Of a DNA stretch of 64,000 nucleotides, positions 34,129 through 40,868 are shown one piece after another. Within the stretch, counting starts at the first letter, position 1; each line of letters opens with the position of its first letter. Source of the DNA: an uncultured Negativicutes bacterium (lineage in GTDB: Bacteria; Bacillota; Negativicutes; Acidaminococcales; Acidaminococcaceae); assembly GCA_947074185.1 (NCBI GenBank), contig CAMTOO010000002.1, positions 1 through 64,000 of the forward strand. Reading direction: 5' to 3'. The translations under genes and the position numbers were made by a program. The notes under the pieces are model-generated. The model was given only the letters and a program-made list of their open reading frames with translations. It had not been told where the DNA came from and searched no databases.

Positions 34129-34695
34129 TTACATACATAAAAATGTGTATAAACACAAACCTAAAACACCTGAAGCAAATAATGTTCTTATTGTTCCAAA
34201 TTTATATCTAATGGCTATCCAAGCTAAAACAAAAATCAAAAATCCAATCTTATCAAAATCCATAACTTCTACTGGCAATTTTTCTGTGTTCCACAATGCC
34301 AACAAAAAAATCCCCACACCAGCACTACCAATTAGTGCTACCACTGCTGGTCTTAATCCATTTAGTACTCCTCTAATAGCGCCTATATCACCATATTTAT
34401 AATACAAATAAGCTAAAGTTAATACTATCACTACTGATGGTGCTACAAATCCAAGTGTAGCAACAATAGAGCCTGGAATTCCTGCTACTTTACTACCTAC
34501 AAAAGTTGCTGCATTTACCCCAATAGGTCCAGGTGTCATTTGAGATATAGTAAATATATCAACAAACTCATTCATCGTTAACCAACCATGTTTATCTATA
34601 ACTTGTGCCTGAATAAGAGGCATGGAAGCATAGCCACCACCTATACAAAATAAACCTACTGTTGCAAAACTCCAAAATAGTTCAAAATAAATCAT
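34129..34695 (-). CDS. Chromate transporter family protein, half-size (second of pair)
   Basis: The protein is 188 residues with about five to six membrane helices. The family core 'FCIGGGYASMPLIQAQV' and 'ISQMTPGPIGVNAATFVG' is present. Short CHR proteins work as pairs of half-size subunits that together equal ChrA. They are often called chromate exporters, but in anaerobes without chromate exposure the natural substrate is unknown, possibly other oxyanions. It follows its partner by 15 nt. Confidence 0.85.
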   Translation of the reverse strand: MIYFELFWSFATVGLFCIGGGYASMPLIQAQVIDKHGWLTMNEFVDIFTISQMTPGPIGVNAATFVGSKVAGIPGSIVATLGFVAPSVVIVLTLAYLYYKYGDIGAIRGVLNGLRPAVVALIGSAGVGIFLLALWNTEKLPVEVMDFDKIGFLIFVLAWIAIRYKFGTIRTLFASGVLGLCLYTFLCM

Positions 34696-34710
34696 TTTGT
34701 ATCCCCTTCC

Positions 34711-35304
34711 TTAATTATATTCAGGTTTCTGCATAAGCAAGAATCCTATTATCGCATCTACTAAAATAATATACATGATATTGACATTAAAGAAATAAGA
34801 AGCAATGAATGACCCTGCCATTATTAATAGTGGTAATATTAATTTCTTCTTTATTTGCTTAACCATTAAATCTAATACCACATCTAAAATAAGTGCTGCT
34901 ACACCGCATTGCATACCTTTTAAAACCATCCTTACGTAGGGGTTAGTAGAAAAGGCATCGTAACAGTAAGAAATTGCTGTAAGGGTAATTAACGGCGGTA
35001 AGATTGTAGCTGTTAAAGCTACTATCATACCTTTTAATCCACCCATACGATAGCCCATAATAATTGCTGCATTAGCTGCAACTACACCTGGTGCAGATTG
35101 TGCTATGGCAACTAAATCAAGAGATTCTTTTTCATCTAACCATTTATATTCATCAACAAATTTTGCTTTCATTAAAGGTATCAAAACAAAGCCTCCACCA
35201 ACAGTAAACGCACTGATTATAAATGTAGACTTAAAAAGTTCCCAGTAAGATACTGGTTTTTTTTCAGTTGTCTCTACTATACTTTCTTTATTAACCCGGT
35301 TCAT
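34711..35304 (-). CDS. Chromate transporter family protein, half-size (first of pair)
   Basis: The protein is 197 residues with an N-terminal cytoplasmic stretch of about 25 residues and then the CHR core 'FTVGGGFVLIPLMKAKFVDE' and 'IAQSAPGVVAANAAIIMG'. The duplicated GGG and APG/TPG motifs in the two halves are oppositely diverged, typical of paired short-chain CHR proteins. It is the first gene of a two-gene operon, divergent from the hydroxy-acid dehydrogenase at 35408. Confidence 0.85.
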   Translation of the reverse strand: MNRVNKESIVETTEKKPVSYWELFKSTFIISAFTVGGGFVLIPLMKAKFVDEYKWLDEKESLDLVAIAQSAPGVVAANAAIIMGYRMGGLKGMIVALTATILPPLITLTAISYCYDAFSTNPYVRMVLKGMQCGVAALILDVVLDLMVKQIKKKLILPLLIMAGSFIASYFFNVNIMYIILVDAIIGFLLMQKPEYN

Positions 35305-36436: not shown

Positions 36437-36469
36437 AAAGAACCTAAACCGCTAAGGTTTAGGTTCTTT
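36437..36469 (+). terminator. Terminator of the hydroxy-acid dehydrogenase gene
   Basis: A 14-bp perfect stem (36437-36450 with 36456-36469) has a 5-nt loop and a TTATATTT tail on the plus strand. On the minus strand the tail TTATTTTTAG could also end the decarboxylase operon. Confidence 0.85.
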
Positions 36470-36493: not shown

Positions 36494-36877
36494 TTAATCG
36501 TTTGTCTTTTCAAATAATACTTCAATCTGTTTTAACAACCCTTTAGTATTGATTTCAAATGTATTAATATCATCTAAACTTGCAGTGTCCAGGTGCAAAC
36601 CTACAGATACTAAAACACGTGTATTTAATTTAGAAGATAGTTGTAGCGCCGCTTCTCTCGCTACTAAATCTTCTTTATGTCCAACTACGCATAATACAGA
36701 TGCACTAGCTGAAATATTTCCGTCTTGGCGCAAACTAGGTCGAGGTATACCTAACGCTACTGCTCCAATATGTTCTACACCACCGCCAATAACTACTACG
36801 ACATCTTTCCCACAAGACGTAATTATTGCCGTTACCTTGCATTTACCATCACCAAAACTTACTGTTTTAGAAAGCAT
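36494..36877 (-). CDS. lpdD: LpdD-like prenylated-flavin decarboxylase accessory protein
   Basis: The protein is about 127 residues from the ATG at 36877, 1 nt after the ubiX stop; the earlier ATG at 36919 lies within ubiX. 'VVVVIGGGVEHIGAVALGIP' and 'ASASVLCVVGHKED' match the LpdD-type protein that accompanies gallate/protocatechuate decarboxylases and is proposed to act as a flavin chaperone. LpdD itself is not catalytic. It is the last gene of the operon. Confidence 0.82.
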   Translation of the reverse strand: MLSKTVSFGDGKCKVTAIITSCGKDVVVVIGGGVEHIGAVALGIPRPSLRQDGNISASASVLCVVGHKEDLVAREAALQLSSKLNTRVLVSVGLHLDTASLDDINTFEINTKGLLKQIEVLFEKTND

Positions 36878-36878
36878 G

Positions 36879-37442
36879 TTATTCACATCCTTCCCAAGGA
36901 ACAAAATCTTTAAACTCAATATTAAACTGCATCAATATTTTTCCTATGATATGATTGACTTGTTTTTCAACTGAGTTTGAGCCATTATAAAAAGTTAACA
37001 TAGGAGGTATCACTATACAACCATTATCAGCCGCTTCTTTAATGTTTCTCAAATGAATTCTACTCATTGGCATTTCTCTAGGAACAATAACTACTTTACG
37101 ACCTTCTTTAATACAAACATCTGCTGCACGAATTAGAAGATTAGTTGCATATCCTGAGGCAATACCTGAAACTGTTTTCATACTACACGGAATAACTACC
37201 ATGCCATCAGTTTTAAAGGAGCCACTAGAGATACTTGCTGCAAGATTTTTATTACTATGCACCACATCTGCTAATACTGTTACATCATCTATTAAGATCT
37301 CTGTTTCACATTCAAAGTTTTTTATGGCGCCTTCTGTAAGAATTAAATGTGTTTCTATTTCAGGAATTTGCTTAAGTACTTTAAGCATGTGATAACCCAT
37401 TACTACTCCGCTTGCTCCAGAGATACCTATTATTAGACGCAT
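36879..37442 (-). CDS. ubiX: UbiX-type flavin prenyltransferase
   Basis: The protein is 187 residues. The FMN-binding 'IIGISGASGVVMGYHML' at the N-terminus and 'PCSMKTVSGIASGYATNLL' and 'VPREMPMSRIHLRNI' identify UbiX/PAD1. It prenylates FMN to make the prFMN cofactor used by UbiD enzymes; the UbiD gene is two genes upstream in the same operon. I chose the ATG at 37442, 8 nt after AAGGAG, over a GTG at 37451. Confidence 0.93.
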   Translation of the reverse strand: MRLIIGISGASGVVMGYHMLKVLKQIPEIETHLILTEGAIKNFECETEILIDDVTVLADVVHSNKNLAASISSGSFKTDGMVVIPCSMKTVSGIASGYATNLLIRAADVCIKEGRKVVIVPREMPMSRIHLRNIKEAADNGCIVIPPMLTFYNGSNSVEKQVNHIIGKILMQFNIEFKDFVPWEGCE

Positions 37443-37463
37443 ATAACTCACTCCTTACCCTAA

Positions 37464-38204
37464 TTATTTTACTAATGGAACAATATAGTTAATCCAAGCA
37501 TAATGGAATGGCATAACAAGTACCATTGCTGGTATCATATTACCAATCGGGAACACTTTGATTCCACAAATTCTAAGACCAGTTGCAAACATTAAAATAC
37601 CACCGCAAGCTGAGAAATCAGCTATCATTTCTGGAGTTGTAAGTGGCATAATAGTTCCAGCTAACAAGAAAAGACTCATTGTAACCGCCACTTGTGGAAT
37701 AAATACCGCTGCTACTATATAACCCAAAGTAGTTGCGAAAATAGCTGCTGTAAAGAAATCTAATATTGATTTCGTGAATAAAATCGTATGATCACCGGTC
37801 AACCCTGATTCTAATGCACCATAAATACCAGTGCCGCTTGCTGCAAAAAGGACTATAATACTAATTAATTTTTCCATATATTCATTACGATCTTCAATAT
37901 TAGAAGTATTAGGAAAAATTGCACCAATAGGCCCCTCGAATTTACGAGCCCCCCAAGCAATACCTTTTTCCATATAAATCCATTCACCTATTGCAGTACC
38001 AATAATAATTGCAAAAATAACTGCAGGTAAAATTTTCATTTTCATGATTGTTGCAATACCCATAGAACAAGAAGCTAAACCAAAAATTAAACCTAAACTA
38101 GTTTTAATTCTTTCTGGAATTAAATGTCCAAAACAAGCACCTATCAAACCACCTAAAATTACTGCTGCTCCATTAACTACTACACCTAAAGGAAAATATG
38201 TCAT
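37464..38204 (-). CDS. DUF554 family membrane protein
   Basis: The protein is 246 residues with about seven membrane helices, matching DUF554 (E. coli YqgA type): 'GVVVNGAAVILGGLIGACFG' at the N-terminus, the 'GTAIGEWIYMEKGI' segment and 'ATGLRICGIKVFPIGNMIPA' near the end. The family function is unknown. It lies between lpdC and ubiX, 22 nt before ubiX, so it is co-transcribed with an aromatic-acid decarboxylase. A role in transport of the substrate or product is an inference from position only. Confidence 0.88.
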   Translation of the reverse strand: MTYFPLGVVVNGAAVILGGLIGACFGHLIPERIKTSLGLIFGLASCSMGIATIMKMKILPAVIFAIIIGTAIGEWIYMEKGIAWGARKFEGPIGAIFPNTSNIEDRNEYMEKLISIIVLFAASGTGIYGALESGLTGDHTILFTKSILDFFTAAIFATTLGYIVAAVFIPQVAVTMSLFLLAGTIMPLTTPEMIADFSACGGILMFATGLRICGIKVFPIGNMIPAMVLVMPFHYAWINYIVPLVK

Positions 38205-38257
38205 TTCAACACCTCATTTTCATATATGGGCAGGGATTAACCCTGCCCTATTATCTT

Positions 38258-39736
38258 CTATTTAAAATCAGGCAACCATTTTGTTGGGTCAACTTCCATA
38301 AACTTAGCTCTATGGAAACGGCCTTTTTCATTATAAGGTACAGTTGCATCATAAATAACTTTACATGCAATACCATGGTCACGAATTGTCCAACTACAGC
38401 TAGAATCATTAGAAGGATCAAGTGGATGACAGCGTACACCCGGAATAGTTACAATATCCACATCCGCTTGCATACGAGTAGTCATTGCCCAAAGAACATC
38501 ATTCATATCAAAGATATCAACATCTTCATCTACCAAAATAACTTGTTTTAATTCAGGGAACGCACTAAATGCTAAAAGTGCTGCTTGGCGTTGACGACCT
38601 TCATCAGAAGGAACTCCTTTTTTGAATTGCATTACTGCTAAGAATTTACCGCCGCCAGGAGATGCTGCATAAACATTTTGCAATCTACCAGGCATAGCAC
38701 GTTCTACCATATCAATGATAGATGCTTCTGTTGGAATACCAGCCATATTAACATGTTCTTCAGATGGTCCAATACAAGTTTGCATAATTGGATTTTTTCT
38801 AGTAGTAACTGCTTTTACTTTAATTACTGGTAACGCTTCATTAGCTGGTCCAGTATAACCTGGGAATTCTGGCATTGCCTTGCCTGTATTTGTGTTAATA
38901 TCTTCACGAATACGAGTTTCTACAAGTAATTCACCTTCAATAACATATTCAGCATTAGCAATACATTTTGCATTTACACTAACGCAATCGGTAAGTTCAA
39001 CAGCTTTTCCGCGAATCGCACCAGCAATAGATAATTCATCAAATCCAAATGGAGTTGTTGGTGGTTCAAAGCAAGCCGCGATTTCAATAGCAGGATCAAC
39101 ACCAATGCTAATAGAAATAGGAAGTGGTTTTCCAAGAGCTTCTGCTTTTTCACGCATTGCACCTAAGTGACGCGCACCTGGAGTGAAGAACATTGTAATT
39201 TCATCTTTAGATTGAAGACATAAACGATGAATTGTTACATCAGATTCACCAGTTTCTACATCAGATGCATAACACATGCCTAAAGTAATGTAAGGGCCAG
39301 CATCTTCTGGTGTATTAGTTGGTGCTGGAATTAATTTACGAATATCAAAACCTTCATCAGTTGCTTTATAAACAACTTCTTGGCATTTAGCTTTATCATT
39401 AGGAATAGTTACAGGAAGAATTGCATCTTTAACCGCATCCTTGAGCATGAAGCCAACTTTTTCATATGTAGAACCTAACATCGCTGCTACACGTTTGCGA
39501 TCTGCAAGTAGACCAATAACAACTTTTGCGTCTGGATGACCTTTTACTTTATTAAACATCATTGCTGGGCCAAGTTTTGTCGGACGAGCTACAGTACCAC
39601 CTGCACCTACGTGACGATACACACCAGCAAGTTCTGCTGAAGGATCAACTTCTACATCAGTTGATACTAGTTGACCAGGCATAGTTTCTAACAATTCTAA
39701 TGCTGATCTTAAATCAATAACTTCTTTCTTTGCCAT
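38258..39736 (-). CDS. lpdC: UbiD-family aromatic hydroxy-acid decarboxylase, LpdC (gallate decarboxylase) type
   Basis: The protein is 492 residues, of the prFMN-dependent UbiD family. It resembles Lactobacillus plantarum gallate decarboxylase LpdC over its length: 'TDVEVDPSAELAGVYRH', 'KATDEGFDIRKLIPAPTNTP', 'FEPPTTPFGFDELSIAGAIR', 'REDINTNTGKAMPEFPGYTG' and 'VDEDVDIFDMNDVLWAM' (recognised from memory). The active-site Glu region 'YVIEGELL' is present; the usual EGPFGE loop is replaced by AMPEFPG, as in LpdC. It should decarboxylate gallate, protocatechuate or a similar acid. ATG 39736 has GGAGG 8 nt upstream. Confidence 0.92.
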   Translation of the reverse strand: MAKKEVIDLRSALELLETMPGQLVSTDVEVDPSAELAGVYRHVGAGGTVARPTKLGPAMMFNKVKGHPDAKVVIGLLADRKRVAAMLGSTYEKVGFMLKDAVKDAILPVTIPNDKAKCQEVVYKATDEGFDIRKLIPAPTNTPEDAGPYITLGMCYASDVETGESDVTIHRLCLQSKDEITMFFTPGARHLGAMREKAEALGKPLPISISIGVDPAIEIAACFEPPTTPFGFDELSIAGAIRGKAVELTDCVSVNAKCIANAEYVIEGELLVETRIREDINTNTGKAMPEFPGYTGPANEALPVIKVKAVTTRKNPIMQTCIGPSEEHVNMAGIPTEASIIDMVERAMPGRLQNVYAASPGGGKFLAVMQFKKGVPSDEGRQRQAALLAFSAFPELKQVILVDEDVDIFDMNDVLWAMTTRMQADVDIVTIPGVRCHPLDPSNDSSCSWTIRDHGIACKVIYDATVPYNEKGRFHRAKFMEVDPTKWLPDFK

Positions 39737-39819: not shown

Positions 39820-39850
39820 ATGATATTCTATAAAGTAAGAATACAGTCAA
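39820..39850 (-). promoter_or_regulatory. MerR-type promoter with operator, controlling the lpdC operon
   Basis: On the minus strand TTGACT (39850-39845) and TATCAT (39825-39820) are separated by 19 nt rather than 17. The spacer holds a perfect 6-bp inverted repeat, TATTCT (39843-39838) and AGAATA (39829-39824), with 8 nt between. Long spacers with dyads are characteristic of promoters activated by MerR family regulators, which untwist the DNA. The MerR gene ends 63 nt upstream of the -35 in the same direction. Confidence 0.75.
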
Positions 39851-39912: not shown

Positions 39913-40743
39913 TTATTTTTTGCGTTTTATCGGGATTTGTAACATACAAAAATCAAGACTTTTTTGCTCACGATAAAAAGTTGTATCTAATAAACATATA
40001 TCTATCACATCACCAATAACTTCATAACCTTTTCCTTCGATCCAATCAAGCAATCTATCCACATGCTCGAAATCATAAGGCATCCCGTACTTATACATAC
40101 AGGCATATTCTCCTGTTGGAACTTCTACTACATCTTCTATATTATGTGTTTCAGGCGGTAAGAATATACATGTAGCAATACCATTTTCATAGTCCCGTTT
40201 CACTGCATTTTTTTTTCTAATCATAGATCCGAATCCACTAGATGGCACCATTTCTTTTGCAAATACTTTTTTCCATAGCGCCATTAAAGTAGTATGTAAA
40301 TTTTCTTTAGTAATTGGTTTTATATACTCTTGTACAATCATACTACGTGCCGCAATACACTTAACAAAAGGTTCTTTTATATTTACGGCATTAGCATCTA
40401 CAGCTTCTTCATAAATATCTATTCTTTGTGATATAGACTCTCTAATTTTATTTAATTTATTCATTTCACGAACTATTTTACTTTTTTGAGCCCTTAATAA
40501 TTCCATTTCTTTTTCTGGACAACGTTCTTGAAAGTGCTCTACTATATCTTTCAAACTTACCCCTACCGACTTTAAAAAGCATATTTCTCTTAAATACGGA
40601 ATTTGTCTTCTACTATAGTAACGATATCCATTTTCATCTACTTCGCGTGGTTTAAACAAATCAATTTCATCATAATAAATTAAAGTTTGTCTTGTTATGC
40701 CATGTAGTTTAGCCATTTCACTTATTGCAATTAAGTTAGTCAT
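39913..40743 (-). CDS. MerR family transcriptional regulator with GyrI-like effector domain
   Basis: The protein is 276 residues, with a MerR winged helix (about 1-75: 'AISEMAKLHGITRQTLIYYDE', 'EVDENGYRYYSRRQI'), a dimerization coiled coil (about 76-120) and a C-terminal GyrI-like/BmrR ligand domain (about 130-270). The layout resembles multidrug and aromatic ligand sensors such as BmrR. The promoter just downstream has a 19-bp spacer and a dyad, so it probably activates lpdC-DUF554-ubiX-lpdD in response to an aromatic acid. ATG 40743 follows AAAGGAGATATAC. Confidence 0.88.
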   Translation of the reverse strand: MTNLIAISEMAKLHGITRQTLIYYDEIDLFKPREVDENGYRYYSRRQIPYLREICFLKSVGVSLKDIVEHFQERCPEKEMELLRAQKSKIVREMNKLNKIRESISQRIDIYEEAVDANAVNIKEPFVKCIAARSMIVQEYIKPITKENLHTTLMALWKKVFAKEMVPSSGFGSMIRKKNAVKRDYENGIATCIFLPPETHNIEDVVEVPTGEYACMYKYGMPYDFEHVDRLLDWIEGKGYEVIGDVIDICLLDTTFYREQKSLDFCMLQIPIKRKK

Positions 40744-40800
40744 GTATATCTCCTTTCCATGCCTTTAGCAACAATTTTATATATTTATTTTAACATAAAA

Positions 40801-40861
40801 AAAGGTGTATAGTAACTATACACCTTTCATAAAAAATAGTAGCCAAAATTGGCTACTATTT
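40801..40861 (-). terminator. Two tandem terminators after thrS
   Basis: Two perfect hairpins stand in series: 40834-40846 with 40849-40861, next to the thrS stop, and 40804-40812 with 40816-40824. Each is followed by a T-run on the minus strand (TTTTTTATG and TTTTTTTATG). They isolate thrS from the regulator gene that begins 58 nt further on. Confidence 0.82.
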
Positions 40862-40868
40862 TTATTTA

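Follow-up and report, generated by a model that had tools for sequence, protein, structure and literature searches.

We provide evidence that a DUF554 membrane protein related to Escherichia coli YqgA probably serves as the transporter of an aromatic-acid decarboxylation operon in an uncultured, gut-type Negativicutes bacterium of the family Acidaminococcaceae (GenBank assembly GCA_947074185.1). The operon lies in a 64,000-nucleotide stretch of contig CAMTOO010000002.1 (positions 1 to 64,000 of the forward strand; hereafter the window) and consists of lpdC, which encodes a UbiD-family decarboxylase, the DUF554 gene, ubiX, and lpdD, all on the minus strand according to the window annotation and to Pfam and NCBIfam matches. 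Little is known of how bacteria take up gallate and similar plant phenolics, and no function has been assigned to DUF554. On balance, and with moderate confidence, we favor a reading in which a MerR-type regulator controls the operon, the operon decarboxylates a catechol-type hydroxybenzoate, and DUF554 imports the acid, perhaps in exchange for the phenol formed from it. The transport role, substrate, direction, and energetics are what we infer from the comparison of genes and genomes described below.

The slot that DUF554 occupies in the window is held by an organic-anion-type transporter in closely related operons. Phascolarctobacterium, Veillonella, and other Negativicutes have, between lpdC and ubiX, the gene for a 461-amino-acid transporter of the DASS/Na_sulph_symp family; these lpdC-DASS-ubiX-lpdD operons (L003, L004, L006, and L085 to L087) share their MerR gene, promoter, and gene order with the window and encode LpdC proteins 80 to 85% identical to its own. 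Our LpdC tree places the window as the only DUF554 bearer in a clade (support 95/100) whose six other labelled members all carry DASS, and a second mixed clade (support 100) contains DUF554 in G130 and G131 and DASS in L075 and L100. DUF554 and DASS never occurred together within 1.5 kb of the same lpdC gene, where 4.9 such cases were expected (p = 0.0015, a value uncorrected for kinship); one metagenome-assembled genome (L008) has both, in separate sub-operons. Among its relatives, the window DUF554 comes closest to the G201 protein (77%), and the window LpdC to those of the DASS-type operons (86%); because these nearest relatives differ, the two genes of the window have different histories. 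Contig 27 of the window genome (L116, 4563-8669) carries another ubiD operon, composed of a divergent LysR gene, a VdcC-type ubiD (721.7 bits against a cut-off of 650), DASS, ubiX, and lpdD. Elsewhere, genes for MFS transporters adjoin lpdC. That DUF554 replaces DASS suggests transport of the same compounds.

The DUF554 proteins at issue form a distinct lineage, which we call the YqgA-type subfamily and define by the residues S123-G124-T125-G126, R211, P232, and W237 together with placement outside the clade of ordinary DUF554 proteins. All 78 YqgA-type sequences in our alignment carry these residues, whereas 18 ordinary DUF554 sequences have each of them rarely or not at all, and the tree splits the subfamily from the sampled ordinary proteins with a support of 95. 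The window protein has the signature and falls on the YqgA side of this split. E. coli YqgA, which has the same signature, nests inside the clade of UbiD-linked DUF554 proteins, with the reservation that deep placements in this tree are less secure because several long branches meet there. The second DUF554 protein of the window genome (contig 41) is of the ordinary type and is encoded beside gidB/parA/parB-like genes; several Negativicutes (L117, L127, and L134) likewise have ordinary DUF554 genes next to gidB/parA/parB-like genes of chromosome partition.

Linkage of this subfamily to decarboxylase genes recurs in many lineages. A scan of genome contigs for LpdC returned 79 loci, about 20 of which have DUF554 adjoining lpdC or ubiX, and the taxa in which this linkage occurs include Negativicutes, Clostridia, Bacilli, Erysipelotrichia, and alpha-, beta-, and gammaproteobacteria. 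The gene order is mainly one of two: in Bacillota, lpdC-DUF554-ubiX, and in Pseudomonadota, lpdC-ubiX-DUF554. The linked DUF554 gene nearly always lies downstream of lpdC, on the same strand and with small gaps. When linkage is mapped onto the DUF554 tree, the label changes 8 times, as against 32 times for shuffled labels; it is thus far more clustered, and a chance position of DUF554 next to lpdC is improbable. Searching 380 Negativicutes genomes with a profile of the linked proteins recovered the subfamily in 13, and six of the eight genera that possess it have it linked to lpd genes, with the other two having it unlinked. From a sample of 198 enterobacterial genomes we typed the neighborhoods of the 30 best-scoring YqgA-type copies: 19 are next to lpdC or ubiX (one of them only beside a ubiX fragment), 6 are speC-linked YqgA, 1 is next to an amidohydrolase gene, and 4 lie elsewhere. 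The cassette is plasmid-borne in Enterobacter, Klebsiella variicola, Rahnella, Neorhizobium, and E. coli. Few E. coli genomes have it (2 of 5,426), and the plasmid cassette of that species also holds idi and a PF07519 tannase gene. Tannase genes are found near other lpdC genes as well, and we count both findings in favor of the main reading. In some enterobacteria, idi or a gene with an Idi-like N terminus follows the cassette (L172, L187, L190, and L201), where it may supply the prenyl donor for prenylated flavin mononucleotide (prFMN), the UbiD cofactor. Rarity of DUF554 beside UbiD had been named in the original prediction as a result that would tell against it; our survey found such rarity for DUF554 as a whole but recurrent linkage for the YqgA-type subfamily.

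A further association comes from Klebsiella (L173 and L180, Klebsiella pneumoniae; L209), in which a YqgA-type DUF554 gene whose product is 53% identical to the window protein directly follows an amidohydrolase gene. The closest relatives of this amidohydrolase are gamma-resorcylate and 2,3-dihydroxybenzoate decarboxylases, which work without prFMN, and the pairing points to the handling of substrate or product rather than to the supply of a cofactor. The original prediction had suggested from gene position only that DUF554 may move either the aromatic acid or the phenol left after decarboxylation. That suggestion now draws further support from the replacement by DASS, the recurrent linkage in distant taxa, the MFS genes at other loci, and the Klebsiella enzyme, and transport itself keeps its standing as a prediction.

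The remaining proteins of the operon indicate what would be transported. The window LpdC is 60% identical to AroY (PDB 5ny5, 5o3n, and 5o3m) and keeps the equivalents of its catechol-binding residues Arg188, Glu289, His327, Lys363, and His436, whose exchange abolished AroY activity (PMC5656893); a residue printed as Arg181 in that paper could not be placed in our alignment. AroY decarboxylates protocatechuate and also gallate (PMC5656893). This residue set and the three-domain architecture place the protein among the AroY/LpdC-type UbiD enzymes, and its score of 458.6 bits against the VdcC-type model NF041204 falls below the cut-off of 650. Its substrate is probably a catechol-type hydroxybenzoate, either protocatechuate or gallate. 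A profile of LpdD relatives matches the solved LpdD structures 8pzh, 8po5, and 8p4w at E values of ~1e-13, which identifies the last gene of the operon as an LpdD chaperone for the reduced cofactor, prFMNH2, a function described in PMC10865409. A contig filed under Accumulibacter (L005) encodes an LpdC 82% identical to that of the window, a Negativicutes protein, and is probably mis-binned.

A mechanism can be proposed by analogy with characterized relatives. UbiX would make prFMNH2, LpdD would carry it to LpdC, and LpdC would remove CO2 from the acid with uptake of a cytoplasmic proton. DUF554 would import the aromatic acid and perhaps carry the uncharged phenol out in exchange; if this exchange were electrogenic, the cell would gain proton motive force, as has been proposed for Lp_2943 and LpdBCD in Lactiplantibacillus plantarum. 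The window operon does hold both a predicted cytoplasmic decarboxylase and a membrane protein, and it is from the DASS replacement that we infer an exchanger role for the latter. In L. plantarum, gallate raises expression of lp_2943, an IT-superfamily gene beside lpdC, 73-fold, and this gene is proposed to encode the gallate transporter (PMC4600210). Resting cells given gallate build a membrane potential and a pH gradient, and the authors propose electrogenic uptake of gallate, most probably in exchange for pyrogallol (PMC4600210).

The predicted structure of DUF554 offers a lead on where a substrate might bind. In transporters, the substrate site is commonly found where helices are broken by small polar loops. 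The AlphaFold model of the window protein (predicted local distance difference test score 85) is helical, and its helices 106-121 and 124-136 meet beside the SGTG motif. The region around SGTG may be the substrate site, which we offer as a lead from the model and not as a test. A Foldseek search of this model against the PDB gave no match at E <= 0.1, and a sequence search of the PDB gave no match either. DASS transporters belong to the IT superfamily. Nothing places DUF554 in this DASS/IT group: its Pfam match is to DUF554 alone, and the fold search returned no PDB structure at the threshold above. ZIP metal transporters were the top PDB match, but at an E value of 0.12 and a TM score of 0.28 we rejected them as fold relatives. 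More tentatively, and with rather more doubt than belief, we suggest that the YqgA-type proteins constitute an unrecognized secondary-transporter family whose fold has no match among solved structures, that they exchange hydroxybenzoate for phenol to the benefit of the proton motive force, and that E. coli YqgA descends from this family.

Several observations weigh against a transporter of aromatic acids. The DUF554 fold matches no solved transporter in the Foldseek search of the PDB. At many lpdC loci, DUF554 and DASS are both missing from the immediate surroundings. YqgA-type genes stand without an adjoining decarboxylase gene in G024/G036, in G566, in one Negativicutes genus, and in several enterobacterial copies; an exclusive link between the subfamily and UbiD is thereby ruled out, and since such unlinked copies exist, members of the subfamily may serve other substrates. 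The pairing of amidohydrolase and DUF554 was seen in a single lineage, Klebsiella, and two records of amidohydrolase homologues, from Pantoea and Paraburkholderia, have no DUF554 gene nearby.

Among the alternatives, the one that survives best, although we consider it unlikely, is that DUF554 handles a by-product of decarboxylation (CO2, bicarbonate, or protons) and not the aromatic compound. It would account for the linkage of DUF554 to two unrelated decarboxylase families, for the enterobacterial yqgA copy beside the ornithine decarboxylase gene speC, and for another copy that is followed by an indolepyruvate-decarboxylase-like gene. The speC-yqgA link, however, counts only once, because this divergent pair of neighbors sits at a single inherited chromosomal site. 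CO2 passes membranes freely, moreover, and the slot of DUF554 is otherwise held by DASS or MFS transporters. E. coli-type yqgA genes beside speC were seen at L207, L208, L210 to L213, and L176 to L178.

A more improbable role is that of a membrane helper of the prFMN system, which would provide metal, flavin, prenyl phosphate, or an oxidant needed in cofactor maturation. DUF554 does adjoin ubiX and lpdD, idi accompanies some enterobacterial cassettes, and the weak and nonsignificant resemblance to ZIP metal transporters could be set beside the need of UbiD for a metal in prFMN binding. A cofactor role is nonetheless less likely: DASS takes the place of DUF554 in sister operons that have the same ubiX and lpdD, and the Klebsiella partner is prFMN-independent; ordinary lpd operons without DUF554 are common besides. 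We give just as little credence to the idea that DUF554 only exports a toxic phenol, pyrogallol or catechol, and that the acid enters by another route. Release of the phenol is needed whatever the entry route, and a MatE-family efflux gene stands beside some lpdC operons (L037), but the family that takes the place of DUF554, DASS, consists of anion importers, and the window operon has no second import gene. That DUF554 is a passenger without a role in decarboxylation, as the unlinked copies of the same subfamily might suggest, is very unlikely indeed in the face of the cross-phylum linkage in two gene orders, nearly always with a same-strand, small-gap arrangement, and of the clustering of the linked label on the DUF554 tree.

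The regulation of the operon appears to be conserved in relatives. Residues 6-251 of the MerR-type protein align with BmrR (1exi/1r8e) at an E value of ~1e-13, and because the alignment extends over this span, the protein probably has a domain that binds an aromatic or lipophilic effector. The same merR gene precedes lpdC in the relatives. In 14 aligned loci (the window and 13 relatives), the merR-lpdC gap contains TTGAC[TC], a 19-bp spacer with a partial dyad, and a -10-like hexamer, and this promoter is found in all three kinds of operon: those with DUF554, those with DASS, and those with neither. A 19-bp spacer is a hallmark of MerR-activated promoters. The MerR DNA-binding domain, the BmrR-alignable effector domain, and this spacer together mark the regulator as BmrR-like. 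We rejected the palindrome GGACCTAGTCC in the same gap as the operator; it is present only in the window, and the conserved element is the TTGACT-N19 promoter. In Phascolarctobacterium faecium (L003, 6176-14721), merR-lpdC is duplicated in tandem, and a cut-short DASS gene follows the first copy. A stable hairpin lies between lpdC and the transporter gene, whether DUF554 or DASS, in many Bacillota loci (the window, L003, L006, L009, L010, L011, L075, L085 to L087, L096, and L100); its position is kept, its sequences are unrelated, and it may give lpdC and the downstream genes different mRNA levels.

The four co-directional genes were found where the original prediction had placed them, between 36494 and 39736. 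Gaps of 53, 21, and 1 bp separate lpdC from DUF554, DUF554 from ubiX, and ubiX from lpdD, and the four genes are a single transcription unit. For lpdD, the earlier gene call and its end at 36494 stand, and its start at TTG 36919, inside ubiX, gives way to ATG 36877, which fits better and is most likely the true start. Terminator-like stems are present at 40800-40863, between merR and thrS. Beyond the operon terminator and the convergent FMN-dehydrogenase gene, a pair of short, single-domain genes of the chromate transporter family occupies 34129-35304 on the same strand.

Table 1. Genes and signals of the decarboxylation operon, in window coordinates
Feature	Position	Strand	Description
lpdC	38258..39736	-	UbiD-family 3,4-dihydroxybenzoate/gallate-type decarboxylase, 492 aa; UbiD_N, UbiD, and UbiD_C all above cut-off
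DUF554	37464..38204	-	YqgA-type membrane protein, 246 aa; PF04474, 211 bits (cut-off 25.1); proposed hydroxybenzoate transporter/exchanger
ubiX/lpdB	36879..37442	-	Flavin prenyltransferase (prFMNH2 maker), 187 aa; NF004685, 226 bits (cut-off 188); TIGR00421, 199 bits (above cut-off)
lpdD	36494..36877	-	prFMNH2-binding chaperone, 127 aa; PF21758, 108 bits (cut-off 27)
merR	39913..40743	-	BmrR-like regulator, 276 aa; MerR_1; upstream of lpdC
MerR-type lpdC promoter	39820..39850	-	TTGACT (39850-39845), 19-bp spacer, TATCAT (39825-39820)
Hairpin GGGCAGGG-loop-CCCTGCCC	38228..38248	-	lpdC/DUF554 gap; no T run after it in operon direction
Bidirectional terminator	36437..36469	.	3' of lpdD; 14-bp stem and T run; common to the convergent FMN-dehydrogenase gene

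If the favored reading is true, it gives an uncharacterized family both a class of substrates and a direct test, provides a first functional lead for E. coli YqgA, and supplies the missing transporter in the conversion of tannins and phenolic acids by gut anaerobes. The DUF554 and DASS versions of the operon would then be a natural pair in which to compare two unrelated transporters that do one job.

Our searches of the literature on DUF554 and YqgA function found nothing relevant. The gallate system of L. plantarum (LpdB, LpdC, LpdD, and Lp_2943; PMC4600210) shares with the window a UbiD-type decarboxylase, UbiX, LpdD, a transporter gene beside lpdC, and probably its substrate class. There, however, an IT-superfamily protein is the proposed transporter, and more than 1 Mb separates lpdBD from lpdC (PMC4218992), whereas the window has a single operon, DUF554 as its membrane protein, and a MerR-type regulator. 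The original prediction regarded the union of lpdC, lpdB, and lpdD as unusual, a view we abandon: the three genes are clustered in Streptococcus gallolyticus as sgdCBD (PMC4218992), as they are in the window and at many of our loci, and that paper reports no DUF554 gene in the S. gallolyticus cluster. E. coli YqgA belongs to the same DUF554 subfamily as the window protein, but its gene adjoins speC rather than a hydroxybenzoate operon. Judged on comparison across many genomes, the YqgA-type DUF554 proteins are good candidates to form a new phenolic-acid transporter family. The operon as a whole is a variant of a known decarboxylation system, and what appears new, in light of the literature searched, is a YqgA-type DUF554 protein as its probable transporter and the exchange of that protein with DASS among closely related operons.

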